From positions 1-40,269 of the IMG/VR virus record IMGVR_UViG_3300034272_001940: a stretch of 40,269 bases of DNA; one strand, given 5' to 3'. The DNA comes from a virus. This document shows, one piece after another, positions 1 through 18,100 of this stretch. The notes under the pieces are model-generated. The model did not search any database and was not told where the DNA came from. It saw only the letters and a program-made list of their open reading frames with translations. Made by a program: the position numbers and the translations under genes. Each line of letters starts with the position of its first letter. Within the stretch, counting starts at the first letter, position 1.

Positions 1-626
1 AGGTCCAAGTATGTTTTCCAATCCCAAAATTTCTCAGGCACATGTCCCTTGAGCATGCTGTGACTGAGGTTGGACAGCGTTCTGAAAACCCGTTCGTCTG
101 ATGTATTCAACACCATTTCTGCTGCCAGCCGCACAGCATCATCAGGATGTGATTGTTCCAGATCTCGCAAGACATCTTTGAATTCATCAATCTTGTGCAG
201 GTTGGCCCAACGCAAGGCCTCTCTGCTGTCCAAAACAATGTCGGGTTCGCTTGTATAACTGAACACGTGGGCACCATCAATGGGAAAAATCACATAGGTT
301 TGGCCAAAAAATTTGGTCATCTGTGATCTACTTGTGGTGAAAATACTGTTGTGTCTCTGTGCCTGTATGCCCAACAAGCTTAACATATAATCAAATTGTT
401 GGCTATAATAGGGATCGCTGTCCTTGGGTTTGCGATCTTGCATGCTGTTGCCCACAAATGCTGGATAATCAGCGTTTCGTAGGCCTCTGTACAGCCATTT
501 TTGAGCACGCTGTACCTCTATTATGTATTTGGCACAGTGCCTGTCAATGAGGGCCAATACTTGTGTGGGGTCCTCCACTTGTAATTGGCTACCTGGAGTT
601 GGAACTTGTATTTCATCTATTTTCAT
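1..626 (-). CDS. ADP-ribosyltransferase-like phage protein, partial (cut at left window edge)
   Basis: The minus strand is open from an ATG at 626 to the window edge, giving 208 visible residues without a stop. Seen: a start MKIDEIQ, then LYRG at about residues 44-47, RKPKDSD at about 63-69, NSIFTTS at about 89-95, and FGQTYVIFP at about 102-110. An aromatic-R-G strand followed by an S-T-S-like strand is the pattern of R-S-E class ADP-ribosyltransferases, and phage proteins with this motif set are common beside T4-like tail genes. I could not assign the catalytic glutamate, so activity is inferred. The gene starts 4 bases after the stop of the upstream minus-strand gene (631-1416), which is a clear paralogue, so the two probably form one operon. 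No strong Shine-Dalgarno sequence is seen. It could instead be a structural or non-enzymatic relative. Confidence 0.6.
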   Translation of the reverse strand, partial: MKIDEIQVPTPGSQLQVEDPTQVLALIDRHCAKYIIEVQRAQKWLYRGLRNADYPAFVGNSMQDRKPKDSDPYYSQQFDYMLSLLGIQAQRHNSIFTTSRSQMTKFFGQTYVIFPIDGAHVFSYTSEPDIVLDSREALRWANLHKIDEFKDVLRDLEQSHPDDAVRLAAEMVLNTSDERVFRTLSNLSHSMLKGHVPEKFWDWKTYLD

Positions 627-630
627 AATA

Positions 631-1416
631 TCAACCCGGTTGTTGGGAGTAATCAATACCCCATAGTTTTTCTATCCATCTACCAAAAATTGCACCCTTG
701 AGTGCAATGTAGGATCCACTAATGAGTATTTCCACTCCCTTGTGCATGGCCAAGTCCAATTGTTGTGCCATGGGGCTATAGTTGGCAATAAATTCACTCA
801 TGCTGCTGAGAGCTTGCTCTCGATCTTTATCCAAAACAATATCTTTTTGTTTAGTATATGTGTAGTGAAATTGATTGTTTTTGGGAAAAATCAAATAAAT
901 GTCACCATACATATCAGCTTGATCCAGATCAGTGCTGACAAATATGCTGTTGCTGCGCAAAGCCTTGAAGTTCAGTTCACGCAGATAATCATCAAATTTT
1001 GCTGTGAGTTCAGGATCACTGTCCTTGGGTTTTCTATTTGTTTTGGTAACACCACTGAAGGCTGCGCCTCTATCTGTCATGCCACTCAGCAAAAATTTTT
1101 GCGTTTTTTTGTTGAGGCCAAGTATTGTGCTGCACTCTTGTTCAATTGTTTTGAGTATTTCTCCAGCTTTGGGTGGTTGTTGTTTCAGGATTTTGTGCAT
1201 GGTAGCGTATACATGAGCCAACTGTTGATTGAGATCATGCATCTGTGTATTCAATTTGGTTTTGTCTGGACTATTTTTGTCAGCCCAAAACCAATCATTT
1301 GCAACTTTGGCATATTCTGCTTGGAGTCTAACCTTTTCTTTTTCCAGGTCATCCAACTCAGTTTGAATTTTGGTTTTATACTCTGTATTTGAAAGTTGGA
1401 TCTCGTTTATTCTCAT
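631..1416 (-). CDS. ADP-ribosyltransferase-like phage protein with N-terminal coiled coil
   Basis: A 261-residue protein. Residues about 15-80 are rich in E, K, Q and L and look like a coiled coil. The C-terminal half repeats the motifs of the neighbour at 1-626: DRG near residue 115, RKPKDSDP near 128-135, RSNSIFVSTD near 154-163, YGDIYLIFP near 169-177 and DIVLDKDRE near 190-198. Both proteins also start alike (MRINEIQ and MKIDEIQ), so they arose by tandem duplication. The R / S-T-S pattern suggests an ADP-ribosyltransferase fold, which in phages can modify host proteins; no substrate can be read from the sequence. A TGTAAATA box (1441-1448, minus) lies 25 bases upstream of the ATG and may be a late promoter. 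The gene is divergent from gp25. Confidence 0.6.
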   Translation of the reverse strand: MRINEIQLSNTEYKTKIQTELDDLEKEKVRLQAEYAKVANDWFWADKNSPDKTKLNTQMHDLNQQLAHVYATMHKILKQQPPKAGEILKTIEQECSTILGLNKKTQKFLLSGMTDRGAAFSGVTKTNRKPKDSDPELTAKFDDYLRELNFKALRSNSIFVSTDLDQADMYGDIYLIFPKNNQFHYTYTKQKDIVLDKDREQALSSMSEFIANYSPMAQQLDLAMHKGVEILISGSYIALKGAIFGRWIEKLWGIDYSQQPG

Positions 1417-1440
1417 GATGTTCTCTAGGATACCAGATCA

Positions 1441-1448
1441 TATTTACA
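1441..1448 (-). promoter_or_regulatory. Candidate T4-type late promoter for the ART-like operon
   Basis: TGTAAATA on the minus strand differs at one position from the T4 late consensus TATAAATA and sits 25 bases before the ATG at 1416. This is a motif match only. Confidence 0.35.
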
Positions 1449-1476
1449 AATGTTTATCCCAGCTGATTATAGGTAG

Positions 1477-1484
1477 GGTAAATA
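1477..1484 (+). promoter_or_regulatory. Candidate late-promoter-like box before gp25
   Basis: GGTAAATA matches 6 of 8 positions of the T4 late consensus and points toward gp25, but it ends only 8 bases before the ATG. If used, the transcript would be nearly leaderless for gp25, so it may instead be fortuitous. The upstream AGGTAGGG (1471-1478) could act as a distant Shine-Dalgarno sequence. Confidence 0.2.
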
Positions 1485-1492
1485 TTGTCACA

Positions 1493-1888
1493 ATGGCAAA
1501 TTCAGCAAGCAACAGGGTGTTTGTGGGCTACAGCAGCGTAGACACCAGTATCAAGCAAACACAATACACAGATCTGGACCTGATCAAAAGAGATTTGATC
1601 AATCATTTTTATACCAGAAAAGGTGAACGTGTGATGATGCCCACTTTTGGAAGTATAATCTGGGATATGATTTTTGAACCCATGACTGCTGACAATGTGA
1701 CCCTTATTGTGGATGACAGCACAAACATTGTGCAACAGGACACTAGAGTGAATCTGCAAAGCATCAATTTGGTGGAATATGATCATGGCATTCAACTGCA
1801 AATGAACATATACTACCAGCCCCTGGATATAGTAGAGGCATTCAGCCTGGATTTTGACCGTAGAACTGTGGAAGCCACCTCATCATGA
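1493..1888 (+). CDS. 25: Baseplate wedge subunit, T4 gp25 family
   Basis: A 131-residue protein, almost exactly the length of T4 gp25 (132). The family (also TssE of type VI secretion) forms the inner baseplate wedge with gp6 and gp7 and links the wedge to the tail sheath. Visible family features are the helix LDLIKRDLINHFYTRKGER (about residues 24-42), the loop MMPTFGSIIWDMIFEP (about 44-59) and a C-terminal beta region ending in a strand rich in Q, I and Y. An upstream in-frame ATG at 1370 exists, but the extra 41 residues look random and overlap the divergent gene, so 1493 is chosen. The stop codon overlaps the ATG of the relic gp6 start (ATGA at 1885-1888), showing that gp25 and gp6 were once translationally coupled. 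Confidence 0.9.
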   Translation: MANSASNRVFVGYSSVDTSIKQTQYTDLDLIKRDLINHFYTRKGERVMMPTFGSIIWDMIFEPMTADNVTLIVDDSTNIVQQDTRVNLQSINLVEYDHGIQLQMNIYYQPLDIVEAFSLDFDRRTVEATSS

Positions 1889-1923
1889 GCCAATCACTGA
1901 GACAAACCAACCTTGAGAACTAA
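1885..1923 (+). pseudogene. Relic of the original gp6 start (12 codons)
   Basis: Overlapping the gp25 stop as ATGA, this mini-frame encodes MSQSLRQTNLEN and stops. The intact gp6 gene at 2752 begins MSQSIRQTNLFLGQDW. Nine of the first ten residues are identical, so this is the displaced original 5' end of gp6, cut after the tenth codon. At the DNA level only 17 of 30 bases agree, because nearly every codon except ATG and CAA is a different synonym (for example TCA versus AGT for serine and AGA versus CGT for arginine). It is positioned for coupled translation after gp25, but its product should be only 12 residues. Confidence 0.85.
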
Positions 1924-1931
1924 ATAGGTGT

Positions 1932-1961
1932 GTGTCAGGAGGGTTGCGCCCCTCCTGACAC
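1932..1961 (+). other. Strong 12-bp hairpin between gp6 relic and HNH gene
   Basis: GTGTCAGGAGGG (1932-1943) pairs perfectly with CCCTCCTGACAC (1950-1961) around the loop TTGCGC. No T run follows, so it is not a standard intrinsic terminator. It could stabilise an RNA end, attenuate read-through from gp25 or be part of the element's RNA structure. The 5' arm contains AGGAGG, which the fold would hide, but no start codon follows it at a useful distance. Confidence 0.6.
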
Positions 1962-1991
1962 CTAAACGCTCAATGGAGGAGCATCTAGCCT

Positions 1992-2701
1992 ATGAAATTA
2001 TTTATCAGTGTAGGATTGCCTGTTGACAATCCTTTTATAGTCAACAAATATACATATTGGTACTATGCCATTATATCTTCAGCCTGTTCAAGGCACAATA
2101 TAGAAGGATATAAAGAGCAACATCATATCATACCCGATTGTTTTTTATCAACAATAGAAGTAAAGGATCTAGACCAGGCTGGCTTCCTGGTGATTCAAAC
2201 GATTCAAGCAATTTGGTACAGCTAACATCAAAGGAACATTTTATCTGTCATTGGCTTTTGACAAAAATGGTAACTGGACAAGCCTATTACAAAATGGAAA
2301 GAGCTTTGTGGATGTTGAGCTATGCCTCCTATGGAAGACCTCGCATTTGTAGTTCTGCACATTATTCAAGAGCTAAACTTGCAGCAATCCTACACAAATT
2401 ACATAAACCATCTCCTAAAAAAAATAAAAAATATGGTAAACAAAAAAATCCATATCAAGGACCACGGAACACTCCCAATTTAGGCAAATCTATACCAATG
2501 GAAACGAGAGAAAAAATAAGTAATAGCCTCAAAGGCCGTGTATCGCCTCGCAAAGGAAAAGTGGGAGAGCCCTCACCTAAAAGAGGGAAAGATTATGGTA
2601 AACAATCAAACCCTGCACCAAAAATAAAATGCCCTACTTGCCCCAAATTGATTAGCAGCAATAATTTAAACAGGCATATGCTGAAATGCAATATTGAATA
2701 A
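1992..2701 (+). CDS. HNH homing endonuclease, frame split at a U UUU UUA site
   Basis: The first frame starts at 1992 after GGAGGA (1975-1980) and carries EQHHIIPDCF (about residues 42-51); alone it stops at 2225 after 77 residues. The -1 frame continues the same domain: GWLPGDSNDSSNLVQLTS, then KEHFICHWLLTKM, then a NUMOD3-like repeat (ETREKISNSLKGR followed by SPRKGK) and a C-terminal CPTC..H..C zinc finger, stopping at 2701. Together they make a typical phage HNH homing endonuclease of about 236 residues: nuclease, DNA-binding repeats, zinc finger. The frames join at T TTT TTA (2141-2147), in phase for programmed -1 frameshifting; a lost T in the run (mutation or sequencing error) would look identical. 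Homing endonucleases cut an element-free allele so that repair copies the element. The target is inferred to be the gp6 5' end. Confidence 0.8.
2141..2147 (+). promoter_or_regulatory. Candidate -1 ribosomal frameshift site (U UUU UUA)
   Basis: The heptamer T TTT TTA lies with TTT and TTA as zero-frame codons, the exact phase required for -1 slippage. After the slip the next codon is ATC at 2147, entering the frame that completes the HNH domain. A 6-bp stem ACCAGG/CCTGGT lies roughly 25 bases downstream, further than the usual 5-9 base spacing, so the stimulator is uncertain. Confidence 0.45.
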
Positions 2702-2721
2702 TCTAGCAACTTAAAACCGTT

Positions 2722-2729
2722 GATAAATA
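2722..2729 (+). promoter_or_regulatory. Candidate T4-type late promoter for the relocated gp6 start
   Basis: GATAAATA matches 7 of 8 bases of the T4 late consensus TATAAATA and lies 22 bases before the gp6 ATG at 2752, in the cassette. Since the insertion uncoupled gp6 from gp25, a cassette-borne late promoter would restore expression. Motif match only. Confidence 0.45.
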
Positions 2730-2751
2730 ATCAATCAGTTGGGATATATTC

Positions 2752-5700
2752 ATGAGTCAAAGTATTCGTCAGACTAATTTATTTTTGGGGCAGGATTGGA
2801 CAGTAATTTACAACGCAATGAGTGCCATCAATTTTGCCGCATATGATTATGACACCATTCGTCAAGCCTTGATTGATTATATCAGAGTCAACTATCCAGA
2901 AGATTTCAATGACTGGATCAGCAGCAGTGAATTTGTGGCCATTATTGAAATGCTGGCTTATCTGGGAGGCAACCTGGCCTTTAGGGTGGATCTCAACACC
3001 CGAGAGAATTTCCTCACAACTGCACAGAGGCGTGAAAGCCTCATGCGCCTGGCAAGGTTCCTCAGCTACAACCCCAGAAGATGTTTGGCTGGACAAGGCT
3101 TGCTCAAGCTCACTCAGGTGAGAACAGATCAAACCATATATGACAGCAATGGCACCAACCTGCAAAACCTCACCATCAACTGGAATGACACCACCAATCC
3201 AGACTGGTATGAACAGTTTATTCTTGTTTTGAATGCAGCATTCCAGCCCAGCAATCCTTTTGGCCAGCCTGTGAAAAATGGCTCAGTGGGCAGCATCATT
3301 GCAGCCAGATATGACTTCAACAACACCACCAGCAACAATCTAGCGTATGCCTACAATGCCACTGTGAGTGGCACAAGAATGAATTTTGAGTTTGTGAATC
3401 CAGACTTTGAACCCGCAACTGGTGGCAGCATCAACACGGGCAGCAGTGGCTACTACAAAGAAAAAGCCCCCAATGTGTTCAACAGTTGGAGCATGATTTA
3501 CAGGAATGATGGCAATGGCAACAGCAGCACCAACACTGGATTCTTTGCCATGTTCAAACAAGGCACACTTGCATATACAGATTATTTGCTGGACACACCA
3601 GTGCCCAACAGAGTTATCGACATTGCAGCCACCAACGTAAACCAAAATGATGTGTGGGTGCAAACAGTGGATGACACAGGCATCCCCCTGTTAGATTGGA
3701 CCAAAGTTCCTGCAATTTTCAACAGCAATCTGGTTTACAATGATCTGGACCGACTGACCAGAAATATCTATCAGGTTGTCACAAGAGACGTCAATGGTGT
3801 GGACAGCATCAGTATTAGATTTGGTGATGGTAATTTTGGAAATGTGCCCACAGGCAGAATAAGAGTTTACTATCGCACCAGCAACAATCTCACATACACT
3901 GTGCAACCTCAGGACATGAGTTTCCAGAATCTCACACTGGGGTATCAGAGTCAGCTCAACACCATCAACAACCTCACCATGCAATACAGCTTGCAATATC
4001 CTGTTGCCAACAGCCTCAGTAGAGAAAGCAGCGATAGTATTAGAGAACGTGCGCCAGCTGTGTATTATGCACAAAATCGCATGGTGAACGGAGAAGATTA
4101 CAACGTATTTCCCCTGCAAAACAGCCAAGCCCTCAAAATCAAGGCAGTGAACAGAGTCTACAGTGGACAGAGCAGATTCCTTGACATAAATGATCCCACC
4201 AGCCAATACAGCAATGTCAAAGTATTCAGCGATGATGGGATCCTGTATCAGGAATATACACCTGTCTACAAAGAAGTTTTTGCCACCAGCAATCTCAACA
4301 CCAATCAGTTCATAGAAAGTGTGGTGCAACCTTTGCTGTCAGGCAGCACTGACACTGACAATGTGAATATAGGATTGAGAGATTTCTATCTGGAAAATTA
4401 TCCTTACTTTCCTGGCGGTGGACTTTATTGGCAACCCACTGGTGGCAGTGTTCCCAATGCTGCCCAGGGCCAATTTGTGTACACTAATTCCAACAGCACT
4501 GCTACTCCCACGCAAATATTTTTACCAGACAAGGAAAAAGGCTTGGTGACTGGCAGCATGGTGAAATTTACCAGAGAAGGTTGGGTAAATGTGGTGAACC
4601 AGGGCAGCAGCGAATTGGGCATCTACAGCACAATCTTGAGTAGACCTGTTAGCGAATATCTCACTGACACAGGAACTGTGAAAAACCTTGTGCAGCAAAT
4701 TATGCCTCCTATTAGAGTTACTTTGACCGAACAGGAAAAGGCCAGCATTTCCAATGCTGTGCAAGCCAAAAGAAATTTTGGCTTGCGTTATGACAACAGT
4801 GCCCAAACGTGGATTGTACTCAATGCACAAGACGTGGCCATCAATGCTGCATTCAGTTTGGACAATGCTGGTGATGTTAGCAAAACAAACATTGATGCCA
4901 GTTGGTTGGTGCAGTTTGTATATTTGGCCAATTTTGGTTGGCAAATCACAATGAGAGCACTCAATTATTATTTTGAGAGTGTGAGAGATGTGCAATTTTA
5001 TTTTGTGAATACACAAAAAGTAGTGGACAGTCAAACGCTAACCAGCCGCAGAGATAATGTGCGTATCCTTAAGAACAACATGGGCAGCAATGGCAGCTCA
5101 CTTGCTGATGATCAATATTGGGCAGTGCAGAGTCAACAAGTTTATCCTGATGGATACATAGAGCCCAGAGTGATCCAAGTGGTGTTCTGGGACAGCAACA
5201 ATGATAACCTGGTGGACAATCCTCAGTTGTTTGATGATTTGGTTACCAACAACAGCAGAGTGTTCTGGAAAAAAGCAAATGTGGAAGGTTTTGAGAGATG
5301 GAATCCCACCACAGTCAAATATCAGGTAAATCTTGTGGCTGATCTCACCAGTTTGCAACCTCCTGCAAACGTGGGTGATGTAGCATATGTGATCAATCCC
5401 GGTATATTCCTGGAATGCATCAACGCTAGTACACAAAGTTGGCAAGACATCAGCGCCAACTACAAAGCCAGATCAGGCACCAACCGTATAAATTATTGCT
5501 GGCAACACTTTGCAGGTAATGACAAACGTATTGATCCTGCTATCATGAACATAATTGACATATATGTGCTCACCAACAGCTACAACACAGCCATAAGAAA
5601 TTGGATCAGCAAGGGTAGACCCACAGATCCACAACCTCAACCACCCACGCCTGAAGATTTGCGCAGCAGCTTTGAAGAATTCAATGCCTACAAAATGATG

Positions 5701-6102
5701 ACAGATCAACTGATTTGGCATCCTATCAGATACAAACTGTTGTTTGGTGAGCAAGCAGATCCACAATTGCAGGCAGTATTCAAGGTTGTGAAAATACCCA
5801 GCAGCACCATTACTGATAGAGAAATCAAAAATCGCGTGATACAAGCCATTGATGATTTCTTCAATATTGCCAATTGGGATTTTGGCCAGAGCTTTTTCTT
5901 TACTGAACTGGCTGCCTATATTCACCAACAGATGGCAAATCTGCTCAGCAGTGTTGTGATAGTGCCTGCCAGCAGCAACAGCAAATTTGGCGATTTGTTT
6001 GAAATCAAAAGTGATCCTGATCAATTGTTCCTGAGTACAGCCAGAGTAACTGATGTACTGATAGTTCCTAACCTAAATCCAGCTGAGTTGAGAATAGCAT
6101 AA
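2752..6102 (+). CDS. 6: Baseplate wedge subunit, T4 gp6 family (baseplate J-like)
   Basis: An 1116-residue protein, much longer than T4 gp6 (660). gp6 connects neighbouring wedges and forms the ring that keeps the baseplate together around the hub. The N-terminal 110 residues carry the conserved pattern of marine T4-like gp6 proteins: SSEFVAIIEMLAYLGGNLAFR, then a segment with RENFLTTAQRRESLMRLA, then LSYNPRR. A baseplate-J-type core is seen around residues 421-470 (ESSDSIRERAPAVYY, NRMVNGEDYNVFP, ALKIKAVNRVYSG). The first ten codons are the recoded copy supplied by the HNH cassette; before the insertion the gene started at 1885. The Shine-Dalgarno sequence before 2752 is weak (TTGGGA). The stop overlaps the next start as TAATG at 6100-6104. 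Confidence 0.85.
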   Translation: MSQSIRQTNLFLGQDWTVIYNAMSAINFAAYDYDTIRQALIDYIRVNYPEDFNDWISSSEFVAIIEMLAYLGGNLAFRVDLNTRENFLTTAQRRESLMRLARFLSYNPRRCLAGQGLLKLTQVRTDQTIYDSNGTNLQNLTINWNDTTNPDWYEQFILVLNAAFQPSNPFGQPVKNGSVGSIIAARYDFNNTTSNNLAYAYNATVSGTRMNFEFVNPDFEPATGGSINTGSSGYYKEKAPNVFNSWSMIYRNDGNGNSSTNTGFFAMFKQGTLAYTDYLLDTPVPNRVIDIAATNVNQNDVWVQTVDDTGIPLLDWTKVPAIFNSNLVYNDLDRLTRNIYQVVTRDVNGVDSISIRFGDGNFGNVPTGRIRVYYRTSNNLTYTVQPQDMSFQNLTLGYQSQLNTINNLTMQYSLQYPVANSLSRESSDSIRERAPAVYYAQNRMVNGEDYNVFPLQNSQALKIKAVNRVYSGQSRFLDINDPTSQYSNVKVFSDDGILYQEYTPVYKEVFATSNLNTNQFIESVVQPLLSGSTDTDNVNIGLRDFYLENYPYFPGGGLYWQPTGGSVPNAAQGQFVYTNSNSTATPTQIFLPDKEKGLVTGSMVKFTREGWVNVVNQGSSELGIYSTILSRPVSEYLTDTGTVKNLVQQIMPPIRVTLTEQEKASISNAVQAKRNFGLRYDNSAQTWIVLNAQDVAINAAFSLDNAGDVSKTNIDASWLVQFVYLANFGWQITMRALNYYFESVRDVQFYFVNTQKVVDSQTLTSRRDNVRILKNNMGSNGSSLADDQYWAVQSQQVYPDGYIEPRVIQVVFWDSNNDNLVDNPQLFDDLVTNNSRVFWKKANVEGFERWNPTTVKYQVNLVADLTSLQPPANVGDVAYVINPGIFLECINASTQSWQDISANYKARSGTNRINYCWQHFAGNDKRIDPAIMNIIDIYVLTNSYNTAIRNWISKGRPTDPQPQPPTPEDLRSSFEEFNAYKMMTDQLIWHPIRYKLLFGEQADPQLQAVFKVVKIPSSTITDREIKNRVIQAIDDFFNIANWDFGQSFFFTELAAYIHQQMANLLSSVVIVPASSNSKFGDLFEIKSDPDQLFLSTARVTDVLIVPNLNPAELRIA

Positions 6103-9100
6103 TGACCAACAAGCCACGTCGCATAAGTGAATTTCTACCTGAAGTTCTACAAACTGACATACTACAAAAGTTTTTTGCTGCAACTGGAGATCAGTTGTTT
6201 CAGCCTGACAATGTGGAATATCTCAGTGCCTATATTGGCGAAAAACCTCCCTATTATGATCCCAACACTGACAAATATGTGAGTGAAATCAACAGAGATC
6301 GCAGAGATTATCAGCTGCCTCCCACCACAGTCAGTCGTGATCAAACCACCAATGAAGTCACCCATACACTGTTCTATGACGATCTCATCAACAAGTTGAG
6401 ATTTCAAGGAGCTCTTGTAAACGATCACAACAGATTGTTTGAAAATGAATACTACAGCTTTGGTGTGCCTATTGATCTGGACAAATTTGTCAACTATCAA
6501 AATTATGTGTGGCTGCCAGAAGGCCCCCTTGTGCTTACGTTGATTGAACCTCTTAATCCTCTCACAGCCATCATAGGTCAACAAACCTACAATTATGTGG
6601 GTTACTACACATATCCTGATCCTGCCAACCCAGATATTCTTGTTTACAACGAGGCAACTTCAGATAATCCGCTGGTTTTCACTAATGGCATCAAGGTACA
6701 ATTTTTCAATGATGTGACTATCAGCAACCGCAAGAACACATATATTGTGGAAGGTGTGGGTCAGAGTATAAGACTTGTGGCTGATAATTTGGAAACCTAT
6801 CTGGCATGGAGCAATCCTGAAGAATATGACAGCACGGTTTGGGATTATCCCAGCACATATAATGTGCCCAACTATATTTGTATGGGACGAGGTAGTGCCA
6901 ATGCCAATCCCTGGAGTCTGGGCAACAGATGGTTCCACAAGGATGTGCTCAAATACACCAACACAGTTTTGGAAAATTACAACCAGGCAGCAGGCAAACG
7001 TCCAATTTTGGAATTCCAGTATGACCTCAAACTGTGGAATTTTGCACAACGCAATAGAGGATTTATCACTCTAGTAGATACCACCAGCAAATATCTGTCA
7101 GACATAGATGGCCAATGGGTTACAACGATCTATCCCAGTGGCAGACGAGATTATCTGCAAATAGATGGAGTTACCCTTGACGACGACATGGTGATTTTGT
7201 TCACCAATCTCTTGGATCCCGAACAGAACAACAAATTATACAAAGTAACCAATGTGCGCAACAGCTATTACCCCTTGGTGAATCCCACACAACTGGGTCA
7301 GGTAATATTGGGATTGTTGCCCAATGGTGATGACATTATGGGTGCACCGGTTGATGGTGACGGAGTTTTGGTAACTGCTGGAAGTTTGGAATCCCCGACT
7401 GGTGCGCAGCATGTGAACACATATTGGTACTACAGCAGTGTAAGCCAAACATGGATCCAAGGTCAGAACCGACAAATCACAAGTGCTGTGGATCCCACCA
7501 GTGTGGCATATCGTGCAATTCTTAATCAAAGTCCTTTGTTTGATTTGTTTGACACACAGGGAAATTATCTGGGTAACAACAGCATATATCCCACCAACAA
7601 CTTTACTGGATGTAGTATTTTTGAATATGCCTCTAGCACCAGTTCTCCAGTGGATCCAGTATTGGGGTTTGCCACTGTTACTGAAAATCAGAGTGCAAGA
7701 AATTTTGTTTTTGCCAATACAATTGTTACTAACACATGGACTTATCAGCAAAATCTTGTATTACAGCCCATTCCTGGTTACAAGTTTTTTGCAAGAACCA
7801 ACCAAGGTGCCAGTTGGCAGTATCTCAACAATTGGCTCAAAAGCAGTGTGCCCAGCAGACAATATGTGGTAAATGAATTTGTCAGCGTTGATGATCAAAA
7901 TACATTTGTGATAGATCAAGCACCAGCTCTTGCAGTAAATCCACAAAATCCTGCCATTCTGGAACCCACTGTGCCAGGACCATTGCCTATTACTGTGAAT
8001 GTGGGAACAGAGTTACTGCAATTGAATGTGGATTACACAGTGACTGATCGCCAAGTGATTCTCAACACACCCTTGGCTGCCAACCAATTTGTCAAGATCC
8101 GCAGTTATGCAGGCATTCACAACAGTGTCTCAAATGGGTATTTTGAAATACCCAACAACTTGGCTGTTAACCCCAACAATCAGGACATTGAAACCATCAG
8201 TGTGGCCAGCCTGTTGCCACATTTTGAGAGTGTGATTTTAAATCAGGCAGGATTCCAAGGTAATGTGATTGGATCCAACAATTACAGGGATCTAGCACAA
8301 GATCAGAGTCTGGGCACTGTGCTGTTGCAAAACAGGGCTCCTATGCTCAAGCTCATGGGCACCAATGCAGTAAATCAAACAACCGCTCTGGACACCAGCA
8401 GCAGCCTTATTGATCCTTTTGCAGCAATGGTGTGGGCACAGGGAGAATACCTGCGCTTCTATAACAAAGTTGTCAACAGTCTCATGAACCTGTGGCTCAA
8501 CCAGGGATATACCACTGCTCAAACCCCCACGGCCTGGCTTGCGCAGGCCCTCACAACTGTGAACTTGGGCAAAACCAAGGCCAGTACCTGGGCCAACAGT
8601 GGATTTGATTTGACCAATGGTGCCTATTGCAGTGAACAGAGCACCAACCCCACATGGGTTCCTCCCAGTGCCACACGACTGGGTGTAACACCAGCATACT
8701 ATCCTGAAGTTTTTTATGACACAACACAACCCAATGAGCCATTGAGCATGAGATGTCACAATGGCGCAATAGTGGTAATGAAAGATTACAGTAATCAGGA
8801 TTTGGGAGAGATTGTCAACAACTTCAGGGTCACCAGTGACCCCGCTGCACTTACCAATCCAGTAGCACAGGCATGGCTGTTGTTTGAATTGCGCATGTAT
8901 GAAAGTTTGCCACTCAAATACAAGGATCCCCAAGTGCAATTGCCAGTGGATCTCAGGACTATTTTCAGCGGCAAATACAGAGTCACCAGTTATACTCGAC
9001 AGGATCAACTGGCAATACAAAGCCCCAGCTGGCAAAAGTGGTTGACCTTCAATCAGGTGGATGCGTTCAAAAACATCACATTTGATCTTGCAGATCCCTT

Positions 9101-12100
9101 TACTTGGAATTACAGCAGTTGTGTGGACCAGGATGGCATGCCTGTGCCTGGCCACTGGAGAGGCATTTATTTTTGGTTTTATGATACTGCTAGACCACAC
9201 ACAGCTCCCTGGCAAATGTTGGGCTTCAGTCAAAAACCCAGTTGGTGGGATCAGGAATATGGTGCTGCTCCATATACAAGTGGCAATACACGCATGTGGG
9301 ATGATCTGGAACAAGGTCGCATTGCTCAGGGTCCCCGAGCTGGCATAGATGATCAGTGGGCTAGACCAGGCTTGAGCAAATGTATACCTGTGAACAGTGC
9401 CGGAGAATTGTTGCCTCCATTCCTGGCAGGATGTGTGACAAGCTTACCCAGCACCACAGAAGCTAGTGCAGATTGGAAATTTGGCGACCGTGGACCCTTG
9501 GAAAATGTGTGGCTCACACAAGTGGACAGTGACATACAGTGGGCACAATGGATGTATCTCACAGTTCCTGCCCAGTTCATGGAATATCTATGGGATGGTG
9601 CCAGACAACAACAGGTTTATGCTGATCAGGAATTCAGTCAATACATATACTCAGATCAGTTGGCAAGAAAAAGCAGTGCAGATTTTTATGTACACCGTGA
9701 GAATCCACAGGATGTCACCAGCCTTGCAAATCCTCTCAATCTCGATTATTTTGGTAGCTGTGGTATTCAGCACTGGATAAGTGAAAGACTGGTGAGTGAC
9801 AGCAGAAATGTCACCACATATTTTGGTAATATTATCAGAGGGCTGAATGTCAACCTGGCTCATAGACTGGGTGGCTTTACTGACAGCCAAAACACAAAGT
9901 TGTTTGTGGAAAGTTTTGGTATTGGTGGTAACAACAGTCTATTGTTGCCACAGGAAGACATGAGCACCGAACTGTTGAGAAGCAGCAGCACAGGTGAATA
10001 TGTTTACACTGGAGTGATTGTGGAGTTTAGAGGAGCAGGCATAGGATGGAGGGTGATTGGGTATGATGGTGTAAATCCCTACTTTACAATCATCCCCAGC
10101 AATATCAGAGGACCCAAAAACACTGTTGTGATAGACAACCAACGTGTGATAGAATACAGCCGTGGATTGGCTACAACTGCTCAAGTGGCATACGGAACAA
10201 TTTTTGCCACCAGGCAAGAAGTATATGATTTTCTCATCAGCCTGGGCCGAGCACAAATTGCTGATGGTTGGCAGTTTGATCAATATGATGATGTGGCAGG
10301 CAGACCCAGAAATTGGAGTCTCAGTGCCAGAGAATTCTTGTTCTGGAGCCAAGGACCCTGGGCACCAGGCACCTATATAACCCTCAGTCCCCTGGCCACA
10401 CTGGCAAAATTCAGCAAAGAATTTGGAATTATCCAAAATGTAGGTGGCATAGTAAATGGCACTTACAGTGTGCTGGATAGATTGGGCCAGAGTATCCTAC
10501 TCAAAGATTTGGACTTTTTGCGTATTGATGATCAGATCAGTGTTAGGCCCTTGAATGATCAGGGCATCTTTGGATTGCGTCTATACACAACCACACTGGA
10601 ACATGCCTTTGTGTTCAACAACACAACAATCTTTAATGATCTTGTATATGATCCTGTATTGAATCAAAGACAAAGCAGATTCAAAATCTTTGGATACAGA
10701 ACACTCAACTGGCGCGGTCGCATGGAAGCGCCTGGTTATATGATCACACAAACACTGGAACAAACCAGCACCACCATCAGTATTCTCAACAGGATTATTC
10801 CCAATTTTGAAAAAAGTGCAGACGACTTGCGCAAACTTTTTGAAATCGATCTTGCCACCAGTTATATTGATGCCACAAACCCACAACAAGCCACCACTAG
10901 TACAATCACTCAGAGTTTGCCGTTGAATCTCAGTTTGATGGCCAAAAATGTTGTGGGCTATGTGCCCAGGCCCTATTTGACTGATTTGCTGGTGGATGAA
11001 AACATAGCCTTTCAATTTTATCAGGGCATGATACACCAAAAAGGCACAGCCACAGCCATCAATAGACTGTTGCGCAATAGGAATGTCTTGGAACCCAATC
11101 AGGACTTCAATTATTATGAAGAATGGGCTTTTAGGGCCGGCATCTATGGAAATGATTTGGATGTCAACAGTTTGGATGTGAGATTGGACAGCACAGCTAT
11201 TCAGAGCAATCCACAATTGGCTACTATTTTTGGTAATAGCAATACTGATCTGCCCAATGATGACACATATACAGTGTATGCACAAGATGCCAGAATAATA
11301 GATCAGACTGCATTTCCTCAACCCTTCCGTTTGCGTGAAACATATGGCAGCCAGCCAGATGATTTGCCCACAGCAGGATATGTGCTGTTGGGAGACACCA
11401 CCTACACTGTGCCCACGTATGATGCCCTGCTTGCCTTATACAGTGACAGAACTGCTGCCAACATTGCTGATAGCACTCAAAAGCCTTTGCAAGCAGGAGA
11501 CACAGTGTGGCAGTTTATAGACAGTTTGAGAACATGGAATATTTGGAAAATATACCAACCCACATGGCAAATTCTCACAACCAGCCCCAGTGATTTTGAT
11601 GTAACAATAACAGAAGTAACCACCAGCGACAGCCATTACCTAGTGTCAGGTGATCTGGTGGTTATCTATGGTGTGATCAATGCAGGCGTGGCAATTGACA
11701 ACACATTTGTTGTTACTGTCACCAGTACTACAACCTTTGAAATCACCTTGAGCAGCAGCAATATTGGCAGTGGTGGAAGCGTGTTGCTCTACAAAAGCAT
11801 AAGATTTGCCAATACACAAGCAAGAGATGCTGCTGCTATACCTGGCGGCTGGACCCGAGGAGACATAGTTTACATAGATGGTAGCTCAACAACTCCCTGG
11901 CAGGTGCTGCGCAACAGCGGAATCAATTGGTATCCAGTGAGAACGGAAAATTACAAAACTGATCCCAGGTATATTAATACCAGTTTCATATATGATCTCA
12001 CAACAGGCAACACTATTGCCAATCTAGTGTATTGGGATCCAGCCAAGAACAGACTACCTGGCATATTTGACGTGGAAATCACCTACAAAACTCCCTATGA

Positions 12101-15100
12101 TCCAGCACAATACACTCACGATCCCAGCACCACAGTGGGCATAAATGCAGCCAATGCCTGGGGCAATGATCAGGTGGGGTTGGTATGGTGGGATCTCAAC
12201 ACCATGAGGTTTATTGATTATGAAATTGGAACAGATAGCTACCGCAGGCAACATTGGGGATCCATCGCTCCTGGAACAACCGTTGACATTTATGAATGGG
12301 TACGAAGCACTGTGCCGCCTGCATCTTGGCAAGATCTTGTGGCAAAAGGCACAGACCTCTCAGCAATCGGCTCAACTAATTTGCCTTCAGGACAAGTAAA
12401 AAGTGACAATCAACCCTATGTGCTGAGACAGCAACTCAACAGCCTGGGCCAGCTGGTGGATGTATATTACTTTTGGGTAAAAAATACCACAACTGTGCCT
12501 GATGTGAGTTGGAGACACATCAGCACCAGCATATTGAGCAACATCATAGCTGAACCAGGCAACACAGGCATAAGTTGGTGGAGTGCCATCAACTCTACAT
12601 CTGCATTGTTGGGCAACATTGGTTATACTCTCAATGGTAACAACAGTATCTGGCATTTGAGCTGGCTGAAAACACTGGATGCTCCGGCTGTACACAAAGA
12701 GTATGATCTCATGCGCCCTGATGACCCCAGAAGCAGTCCATACGAATATCTGTGGACCAGGTTGCGCAACAGTCTTGTGGAATTTGACAATCAGAGTGAT
12801 GTTGTGCCTGGTTATGCGCTCACAGACCGTGAAACATATGGCATTCAATCTCGTCCTGCTCAAACCATGTTTGAAGATAGAAACGGTGCAAGAAAGGCAT
12901 TTGTCACATATGTGAATCAGTTGTTGGCATCTGCCAGCAGTCCCACAGCAACAGATGTGAGCAGATTTCTGTGGAGAGAATATTTCAATGCTCAAGAACC
13001 CATACCTGCACAGAGGAATACCAAACCGGCTGTTGTAGCTGCAACCACAGACAATCTCAGTGCATATTATATCAACGGCTCTGATGGAGTGGCAGCACAA
13101 TTGATTGCCAAAACTACTCAATTATTGATTGTGGACAGCAATCGTGTGCCAGTAAATCCTGGAGACCCCAACAACACAACTGATATAATAACTGGTTATT
13201 ATCCTAGTGTGGGTGATAGAATCTTGATTAAAAATCAAATCAACAACGCACACAATGGAATTTATACAGTTGTCAAACCTGGAACACTGATATATCCCAA
13301 TGCTCTGCCTGCGCCCACACAAAGCAGATTGCAATTGACTGTGCCTGATCCACTAAACCCATCCAGGTCTCTCATATACACACCAGCACAGGGTCAATAC
13401 ATTTTCAGGCTCAACACCTTGTATGTTGTCACAGACATTGGCGGGCCTGACAACAATTGGCAAGCCACACAAGTGGCTGTGGACGTGGCCAATAAACCTG
13501 ATCAATTGGATTGGATTTTGCAACGCACAAGTGACTTTGATCAGGAATCTGACCAATTATTCAACAGTGAGGTATATGTAGAATCAGGATCACAAATGGG
13601 TTATTGGACATGTGATCCCAGTGGCATTAGTGTTGTTACAGCAAAACTATCCAATCCTGGTATAAATTACCGGATTGGGGATGTGCTATACTTTGATGAC
13701 GGAGAGTTTTGGGATCAGGCCGGGCTAAAAGTCACAACAGTGGATAATTCAGCTGGTGATGTGGGACCCATTGCCTCTCTAGAAATATACGATAATGGCA
13801 ATTATACCGTGGTGCCTGATAGTAAACCTGTGCAACTCTATAGCCCAGGCAGTGGTGTCAGTGCTGGAGCCGTGAAGTTCCTGATTGTTTCAGCCAACGT
13901 TAACATTGGTGGCAATGGATTTACAGTGGGTGATGAACTTTACAGTAACTTGAATGGCAACAATCAGGACGAAGCTAGACTTACAGTAACAGGTGTCACG
14001 AATGGACAGGTACAAACAGTTGAGATCACCGATGGTGGTATTTTTGCTCAATCACAAATACCCTTGAGCCTAACCAATGTAGCGTTCTTGAACTCTGGAA
14101 CAGGTGGAGGGTGCACTCTTGATATTGTGTTTGGTATCCAAAGTATAGCGGTAAATTCCGGGGGCAGTAACTATCAAGTTGCCCCCAGTGTGGTAATATC
14201 AGGCGGAAATGGATCAGGAACATCTGCCACTGCAAATGCAATTATGGTAAACAACAGTGTTAGCTTATTGCTTATTACTAATCCTGGGTCTGGTTATACA
14301 CAGAACCCCAGTATATCATTTGTCCAGGGAAGTGCAGCGCGAGCGATCCTAACATGGAGTGATAATCAGGGGTTTGCCATGGGCAGTAAACCTATCACAT
14401 TCAGAAGTGGGAGGGCGCCCACCACATGGGATCAGCAAGTCAGCAATCTAGCACAATTGAATGATCTAAAATATCAGATTATTCCAGGAACAAAGGTGCT
14501 GGTTGCAGATACCAGTTTGGGCAACATCAGCGCAGGCAGTGAAACCAATAATAGATGGAATATTTGGTTGTGGCCCAACAGTCAACCCAATAGTGAATTT
14601 GTTCTACAACAAACCCAAAGTTATGTAGATGCACTGTGCTGGAGTCTAACAGATTGGTATAGCACTGGCTACAACAGTGATACCATTGCTGATTATACTT
14701 TTGATACTCTGGATTCCAGAGATGCTTATTTGGATTTCCAGCAGCTGGATATTGTCAAAGTCAACAACACAGGCAGTGGCTCATGGGCATTGTATTTGTA
14801 TGTGGATTTGTCTACTACCAAATGGGTGCTGATTGGCGAACAAAATGGCACAGTTGTATTAAATGACAATTTGTATGATTATGACAAATACAACATGGGA
14901 TTTAGCGGGGCAGGGTTTGCTCAGGATTTCCAGGGATTTGAATATGACAGCAGACAGGAATTGGATAATATCATACAGGGACTGTGGGTGGGTGCACAGG
15001 GCATAGGCGGACTTCTCAAAATTGACAATGTGACAAATGAGCCCAATCAAGTATTTTTCACAATGCTCAACAGAATATTCCATGAACAGGATCTGGTGGA

Positions 15101-18100
15101 TTGGGCATTCAAAACCAGTTTCATCAATTTGAGAGGATTTGCAGAACAGTTGATTGCCAGTCCCTATTATACAACCAGCAAGATCAACAGTTTGCTGGAA
15201 TACATAAATGAAATCAAACCCTATCATGCAAAAATAAGGCAGTTTGTGGATTGGAAGATCAGTCAAGACACATACACCAACAACAGCACAGATTTTGACA
15301 AACCTCCCTACAAAGATCCAGTGACTGGAGTTAGGATTTTGGACCCCTACAATGAGATTGATGGCAACATCATGATACAAAGTAGAGAATACAAGTATTG
15401 GTTGGAAAACTATCTACCCACTACTGCTACTGCCAATCCTCAACTGATAAGAAACATACGCACCAAATTGATTTTCGAACGTCTGGCATGTTCAGCATCC
15501 ACATGGTATAATCCCGATTTGGAACCCCAACAATTACAGGATTTGCTGGCACTGCCTGTGAACGTAACCATTACAAGTTTGGTGCAATGGCTGACAACCA
15601 TTTATTCACAAAATATTGAGCAGAATTACAAAGCAGAGGTGGCTATTCCTCAATTTGTCATCATGCGCAGGAATGACAACAGCAATCTCACAGATATTTT
15701 GAACAATTGGGATTTCATAGACTATGGTTTGAATTTTACACAAACCTATGGATTGGCTGACACTGAGGCATCAAAAAGAACACTTGTGGAATCACAAAGC
15801 ATATACACAAGTCAACAATTATTTGATTTGTTGGACAACAGTTTACAATACACATCAGGATATCAGATCAAGGTAAGGATTGATGATTGGACAATGCCCA
15901 ACATCTATCTAAAAACATCTGCAGATACCCAAAAGTTGAGTGACTGGTTGCTGCTGTCTTATCAACAGTATCAAGGCAGCATCAATACTATACATCAATA
16001 TTACAGCCCCAGTGGCACTCAGACACCCTTGGACAGTGAATATTTGATAAGTGGTTGTGCTGGTAAATTGCTCACAGTGGATGGTGCAGAATTCAGCAAT
16101 CAAGATGCTTGGGACAAAACCACCTGGGATAATGTCAGAGGCTGGGATTACAGCCAAGATGCATATGATCCCTATGATCAAAATATCACAGATGGCATGG
16201 GTCCTGGTTATTGGATTTATGTGGGCAATGGTGTTCGCACTGAATTTGGTTTGCCGGTGGCTCCTCAAAATCCCAATGAACTCACAGTTTGGGTAAATGG
16301 CACGCCCATCATGCGTGCTGGCAATTGGAGCATTGATAATTTTGTCAGCCAAATGTACGTGATCAACAGTGGTATAAATTACAATACCAATGATGTGATC
16401 ACTGCTGTGGGTGGCACTTATGTCCGTCCTGCACAATTCAAGGTCACAGGACATGATAATTTGGGTCACATCACCAGCCTGGCAATTGTGGATCCTGGAG
16501 AATACTCCGTGGTTCCTGATAGCAATCTGGTAAATGTCACGGGAGGTCAAGGGACCAACGCTGTCTTGAACATACTCTGGGGAGGCAAGACTATTGTGTT
16601 TGCCACAGCACCCAGTGTGCCAGTGCAGCCCAGACCCAATATATGGATTGTGGAGAAAGGCAGCACTTTCCATCCTGTTGTGTCTGGATTGTTGGGTACA
16701 ACCTTGGATGGCAGTGGATTGAACAGGCCTCATCTGGAACCTGGTCATCCCGAAGAACTCAATCCTGTGTGGAACAGAGACAGTCTAGTCATGGATGTTT
16801 ATACTTTGCCCAGTGGAGGATATGGAAATTTGGTCACCAAGGTTTATACCAGTGATGGATTGTTAGATCAATTTGATATTGGACAGCCCATAACCAACAA
16901 CTATCAGTTGTTTGTGTATGTGAATGGTGTATCTCAAGTACAAGGTGCACTGGCAGACTATGTGATTGCATTTGACACCATGAGAGTTGTGTTTGTAAAC
17001 CCTCCACTGCCTGGCAGAGTAAGTATAATCAGCGTGGGCTTTGGTGGTGCAAGTCAAGGATTGGGATCTTTGACTATCATCAGCAAGGGAGCTGGCTACA
17101 ACATAGGTGATGATATCACTCTAGATGGAGGTATTCCTTATGAACCCAGCATGGTTGCTGCAAGAGCTGTGGTAACAGTTACAGCCGTCTCAGCAGTGAG
17201 TGTCAATATTATCAGTGGAGGCCAGGATTATGTTGTGGGTGACTTGCTGAGTCTCAAATATGGATACAGTACAGCAATTGTGATTCTCAGAGTCAGCCAA
17301 GTCACCAATACCATCAACACCAAGGGTATTATTAGTGATGTAGAGATTGTCAATGGAGGATATTACCTCAGTACTCCCAATAGCATAAGCTTCTTCTCCA
17401 GTGGTGAAGGCCAGGGTGCTGATTTGATTCCTGTTTGGGGTGTGGCACAAGTGTCCATCAAAGACGCAGGTGTGTATTTCCAAACTCCGGGACAAGCAGG
17501 TCAATTGAGTGTGACTCCCAGCAGTGGCACAGGATTTGCTGTAAGCTGGGGGCCCAGTGCGATTAGACAGCAACAACAGTGGGTATCCACAGGAGACAAC
17601 ATACTGGAATGGATTACTTTTGATGTAGCCATTGCCAAACAATATGTGTTGGTGGTAAAAAATGGAGAAGAATATCAAGATTGGTATGTGGACAATGAAT
17701 GGCCCAACAGTGTGATCTTGCAAAATGTGGACAATCCTGGAGACGTTTATGTGATTACCCTGTTTGCCAGCAGCCTCAGCAGCCGAATTCACACACAAAC
17801 CTGGATGATTCAAGATGATACCCAATTGAGCTATGTATTGGATAACCCCCCGCAACAGAGTGTTGTGCAATCACTCAATGCTTTGGTGTTTGTTAACAAT
17901 GTGAAAGTCAGGCCTCCTTATTTTTGGCAAGGAACTGGAGATGGCACCACAACAGTGTGGGATATAGGCATTGATACAACCATGAATCCCACAATTGTTG
18001 CTTGGGAAAACATCAGCACAGTTGCAATCAGTGCAGGGCCAGGTGCCCAACAAGTGACTTTTGCAGTGGCACCTGTGCAAGGATCGCAAATTTATGTTGA

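Follow-up and report, generated by a model that had tools for sequence, protein, structure and literature searches.

Mobile open reading frames that combine an endonuclease with a duplicated gene end have been described in fungal mitochondria, where they occur in atp6 of Allomyces and in atp6, atp9, cox2 and nad3 of Glomus (PMC3630166). The inserted ends share about 64-81% DNA identity with the native ones, the protein being conserved; in Glomus atp6 one end copy shows 91.2% DNA identity to a close relative, and the two copies are 63.5% identical to each other (PMC3630166). For phages, the accessible part of a T4 review covers intergenic insertions and gene splitting by homing endonucleases, for example by mobE in nrdA of Aeh1 (PMC2988022), and the accessible part of a survey of phage homing endonucleases reports proximity to essential genes and spliced genes (PMC10448857). 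Duplicated gene ends are not described in these parts of the two texts, and no phage example of such an element was found in the open-access literature searched.

Here, we analyzed a 40,269-nucleotide stretch of viral DNA (IMG/VR record IMGVR_UViG_3300034272_001940, positions 1 to 40,269; hereafter the window), a myovirus fragment in which an HNH gene lies between the baseplate wedge genes gp25 and gp6. As in the fungal elements, the endonuclease gene lies inside a conserved gene and the native end is left as a relic; in the window the inserted end is diverged in DNA and conserved in protein, and the native copy matches close relatives. A previous, sequence-only reading of the locus had likened it to an endonuclease frame with a replacement gene end in fungal mitochondrial atp6, and the comparison proved apt (PMC3630166). 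The free-standing T4 Mob and Seg endonucleases (MobE and others) are related HNH proteins, and their HNH members match the same family; unlike the element described here, they lie between genes or split one, and a duplicated gene end is not described for them in the accessible part of the review (PMC2988022).

Layout of the gp25-gp6 junction

The following features were located at the junction:

1493..1888, + strand: gp25 baseplate wedge gene, ahead of the insertion (PF04965 GPW_gp25, E=2.6e-9)
1885..1923, + strand: relic of the native gp6 start, MSQSLRQTNLEN-stop (25/30 bases shared with the gp6 start of the uninterrupted relative L112)
1992..2701, + strand: gene for a predicted HNH homing endonuclease of 236 aa in its intact form, with a frameshift in the window (phrog_655 match of the intact copy in contig L001)
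2752..2865, + strand: replacement gp6 start, codons 1-38, MSQSIRQTNLFLGQDW... (nucleotide identity to L112 60%, against 79% for codons 39-190)
2752..6102, + strand: gp6 baseplate wedge gene, in the form expected after the insertion (phrog_10646 baseplate wedge subunit, 1092.6 bits)

A dead gp6 start at the gp25 stop codon and a new gp6 start behind the HNH gene, as claimed in the sequence-only reading, were confirmed (1885-1923 and 2752, respectively). The ATG of the relic (1885) overlaps the gp25 TGA (1886-1888). Over the first ten codons, relic and new start agree in 9/10 residues and in 17/30 bases, the codon differences being seven synonymous and one non-synonymous, which supports the earlier view of the downstream start as a diverged copy that preserves the protein. 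The same layout recurs in contigs from other samples (L001, whose identity to the window is 99.9% across 5 kb, and L084-L086; L089 holds the left part only), and an assembly artefact is thus ruled out. When flanks were mismatched, the duplication score of the window (47) was reached once in 600 pairs, and this single chance pair scoring at least 47 may itself join two rnh loci.

The product of the HNH gene is predicted to be a homing endonuclease of phrog_655, which is matched by the intact protein P0001 of L001 with E=3e-32 and by the protein of L002 with E=3e-29. The residues of the catalytic motif (HHIIP ... N ... KEH), H44-H45, N74 and H83, are invariant in four aligned members; the comparison with solved structures returned nothing useful. 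In the window the frame is broken by a deletion of one base in a T run (about 2141-2146; six T in the alignment, against seven in L001), a break missed in the earlier reading. The window gene therefore consists of two overlapping open reading frames, 1992-2225 and 2138-2701, and its HNH motif is cut off behind the first pair of His residues; in L001 and its near-identical kin the gene is intact, with seven T and 236 aa. The frameshift may be a true inactivation or a sequencing error.

In the surroundings of the junction, an open reading frame of 4354 residues directly follows gp6 (6102-19166), and two adjacent genes on the minus strand before gp25 (3-656 and 631-1416), both of the unknown family phrog_11975, are apparent tandem paralogues.

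The same junction in other phages and the native start of gp6

The element occupies the same junction in two other phage species, L087 and L002, whose HNH proteins are 70% and 58% identical to that of the window, respectively. The L087 relic, MSQTLRQSNLFLGQD-stop, shares 26/30 bases with the window relic, and its downstream copy is identical in protein and agrees in 42/45 bases; for the L002 relic, MSETLRQNRLFAGQDWQ-stop, the downstream copy is again identical in protein, with 49/51 bases shared. The duplicated segments thus comprise 15-17 residues. If the element and one repeat copy are removed from L002, the remainder matches the element-free L006 without gaps (140/171). Since the copies in L087 and L002 are nearly identical at the same junction, recoding is no fixed property of the element. 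Its proposal as a general feature found no support; it is not needed for entry or persistence. In a further contig, L074, about 4.1 kb separate gp25 from gp6 (496-5001), against 0-80 bases in most relatives, and this gap is a different insertion.

Joining the two repeats in L002 and L087 would exactly restore the frame, as expected if an intron or a translational bypass connected the relic to gp6. A search of window positions 1400-3200 against Rfam gave no group I or other intron with E up to 10, so that neither a group I catalytic core nor its splice junctions were recognized; the noncoding bases around the open reading frame amount to just about 70 and 50, and gp6 has a complete start of its own behind a sequence resembling a ribosome-binding site. 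We regard such joining as highly improbable, and the earlier claim that the element sits in an essential gene without an intron is supported.

To which of the two starts the native gene belongs can be read from phages lacking the element. L112, the closest element-free relative found (its gp25 is 92% identical to that of the window), starts gp6 exactly at the relic position, overlapping the gp25 stop, and of its first 30 gp6 bases 25 match the window relic and 18 the new start. L006 and L115-L119 likewise start gp6 at the relic place, and L114 does so within a few bases. Because L112 starts there and its DNA resembles the relic, not the new start, the comparison identifies the relic as the native gp6 start. 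Uninterrupted relatives that begin gp6 downstream and have no homology to the relic, the finding named beforehand as speaking against this reading, were looked for; the reading withstood this check, as L112 starts at the relic.

Compared with L112, codons 1-38 of the window gp6 are 59-60% identical in nucleotides and 63% in amino acids, against 79% and 93% for codons 39-190. This is suggestive of a foreign patch and would fit co-conversion from another lineage; it is suggestive only, since element-free phages also vary at the gp6 5' end (63% vs 75% between L112 and L113) and since the 5' end of L112 may itself be mosaic, being 76% identical in nucleotides to L002, with 65% in the rest of the gene. 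As L112 would illustrate, mosaic gp6 starts occur without the element.

A foreign make of the new start, as claimed before, left no significant sign in its codon usage (17 codons, z -1.1, 15th percentile). A search with a degenerate pattern for a phage gp6 5' end carrying the recoded codons, also suggested earlier, found no exact donor. The nearest gp6 starts are those of L348 and L353 (39/48 bases) and of L003-type phages (37-39/48 bases), and in the latter gp6 is preceded by a natural spacer (about 70 bases) that contains a TAAATA motif. Both the ordinary codon usage of the patch and the lack of an exact donor count against co-conversion.

Duplicated gene ends at other HNH loci

For 102 distinct HNH loci, the 300 bases upstream of the HNH gene were compared with the 300 bases downstream of it. 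True duplications were present at five sites: the 5' end of gp6 (in three species), the 5' end of an rnh-like gene, and the 3' ends of folE (L206), a 3'-5' exonuclease gene (L391) and creA (L366). The rnh-like gene encodes a 5'-3' exonuclease of the RNase H type (PF02739) and is affected in L090 and L375, two related insertions that are 72.5% identical in bases. At each of the five sites, the HNH gene has a match to phrog_655. Thus, the arrangement recurs in three species at gp6 and in four other genes, and with uniform polarity: in the orientation of the HNH gene, the order is always relic, HNH gene, and then the replacement copy, which continues into the gene body. At the 3'-end sites, host gene and HNH gene run in opposite directions. 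In L206 (2700-4403), for instance, the antisense HNH gene has on one side folE, whose 3' end is replaced, and on the other side the 3' end of folE that was left behind, which reads as a small open reading frame just ahead of a queE-like gene.

A convincing duplication was absent from the other 90-odd of the 102 loci, among them 13 sampled loci of named, T4-like phages with related HNH genes, and four distant HNH loci of bacterial genomes had none either. The apparent duplication in Klebsiella phage KpV477 (L450) is out of frame and due to chance; the scores of L424 and L445 were also judged to be chance.

Relics were compared with element-free relatives at two sites, gp6 and rnh, and matched them at both: at gp6 with 25/30 bases (L112), and at rnh, where the L090 relic shares 23-30/36 bases with the uninterrupted L266-L270 and the new copy 20-24. 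An end that is diverged in DNA and kept in protein is found in the window (seven synonymous differences to one) and in L366, is lacking in L087 and L002, and is mixed in L090, L391 and L206. The creA gene of L366 (PF05981, 2498-3653) is the cleanest recoded case found; its 60-base copies are 65% identical, and the codon differences are 14 synonymous and one non-synonymous. Because the differences in the window and in L366 are almost all synonymous, the copies probably diverged as working genes, and therefore were either united from different lineages or recoded under selection.

Alternatively, the first 45-51 gp6 bases might have been duplicated as a direct repeat on insertion, with the copies diverging in situ thereafter. 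The replacements in L087 (42/45) and L002 (49/51), where each copy is closest to its own partner, look like such a duplication and count against co-conversion; moreover, recombination would delete long identical repeats, so that divergence could be selected for stability. A dead relic should, however, gain amino acid changes, and among the 8 changed codons in the window and the 15 in L366 there is one replacement each. In addition, the window relic stays near L112 and the live copy does not. We therefore consider divergence in place unlikely.

Selection for recoding, the full form of the idea in the sequence-only reading, is compatible with co-conversion and would add to it: the new start would have been recoded, or a differently coded one kept, to lose the cleavage site and so confer self-immunity. 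The strongly synonymous divergence in the window and in creA of L366 is in line with this, as is the location of the inserts in sequence encoding conserved motifs. L087 and L002, however, keep intact HNH genes despite near-native copies. Furthermore, according to the accessible part of the T4 review, free-standing phage endonucleases may cut hundreds of bases from their own gene (PMC2988022), and the cut site therefore need not lie at the gp6 start. We regard selected recoding as rather doubtful. Homing with co-conversion would be the simplest account of the compared sequences.

Putative expression signals and proposed mobility of the element

Around the HNH gene, the following putative signals were found:

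1921..1926, + strand: left-end TAAATA of the element, a motif resembling T4-type late promoters (from the sequence; kept in L087 and L002)
1924..1993, + strand: leader of the HNH gene, a structured RNA (fold z: leader -3.6, hairpin -6.3)
1924-1929/1988-1993, + strand: outer stem of the leader, pairing with the HNH start codon (predicted fold)
1932-1943/1950-1961, + strand: long hairpin of the leader (predicted fold; fold z -6.3)
1968-1971/1979-1982, + strand: small hairpin of the leader at the Shine-Dalgarno sequence (predicted fold)
2724..2729, + strand: TAAATA again, 28 bases upstream of the ATG of the new gp6 start (found likewise in L087 at -28 and in L002 at -30)

The elements of the window, L087 and L002 share the order TAAATA, leader (CTAAACGCTCAANGGAGGAGCATCTAGCCT), HNH gene, TAAATA (-28 to -30), Shine-Dalgarno-like sequence and gp6 ATG. 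The TAAATA motifs may act as late promoters; the motif is not enriched across the whole window. The leader is a conserved three-way-junction RNA able to hide the HNH start codon, and in the window (1924-1993) it matches no Rfam family. Pairing of the long hairpin is kept through three compensatory double changes, a covariation that is supportive and, since it comes from three sequences only, not conclusive. If the left TAAATA works as T4 late promoters do, a transcript begun there would be without the 5' strand of the outer stem. In L090, a hairpin containing TAAATA lies at the HNH start. The HNH start, with its RNA structure next to a late-promoter-like motif, is reminiscent of the control by late promoter and hairpin that the accessible part of the T4 review gives for I-TevI, segB and mobE of Aeh1 (PMC2988022).

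We propose that the HNH element inserted within the coding sequence of gp6, after about codon 10-17, and that gp6 would have been kept alive by cargo located 3' of the endonuclease gene, namely a replacement start together with a ribosome-binding site and a late-promoter-like motif. The enzyme would break the gp25-gp6 region of an element-free phage. Repair from the donor would then bring in the element along with the gp6 5' end next to it, and the recipient's own start would stay behind as the relic that overlaps the stop of gp25. For the window, a donor patch up to about codon 38 is probable. The alike copies in L087 and L002 may be due to a right-hand switch close to or at the ATG, or to similarity between donor and recipient. 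The HNH gene would be expressed from its own late-promoter-like motif and be controlled by the leader RNA, which could mask the start codon. For this account as a whole, a homing element with a co-converted replacement gp6 start, late-promoter-like motif, ribosome-binding site and leader control, we estimate a probability of roughly 0.7.

The phage elements differ from the fungal ones, which replace 3' ends, encode LAGLIDADG or GIY-YIG enzymes and carry the endonuclease after the replacement; the phage elements encode HNH proteins, affect phage genes at 5' as well as 3' ends, and always have the HNH gene before the replacement in its own orientation. The gp6 element works like the fungal type and is not classed as a member of it, because the replacements at gp6 and rnh are 5' ends; those at folE, the exonuclease gene and creA are 3' ends. 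The phage elements are thus a counterpart of the fungal endonuclease-plus-gene-end elements, extended to gene starts. They also resemble the synthetic home-and-rescue drive HomeR, in which a homing nuclease directed against an essential gene is combined with a rescue copy of its target (PMC7968924); HomeR is an engineered CRISPR drive in an insect, whereas the phage elements are natural and the cleavage resistance of their rescue copy is putative. As a tentative generalization, which seems to us possible though somewhat improbable, phage HNH elements could be natural home-and-rescue drives aimed at conserved coding sequence near gene ends, with a replacement start or finish 3' of the endonuclease gene whose different codons would protect it from the element's own enzyme and from loss by recombination.

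Replacement of a gene end would offer a selfish nuclease a route into important phage genes besides introns, inteins and gene splitting. Such elements render gene ends mosaic, and for phage annotation the dead starts and replaced ends misguide start calls and phylogenies. They would also provide engineered home-and-rescue drives with a precedent from nature, testable as a phage model.
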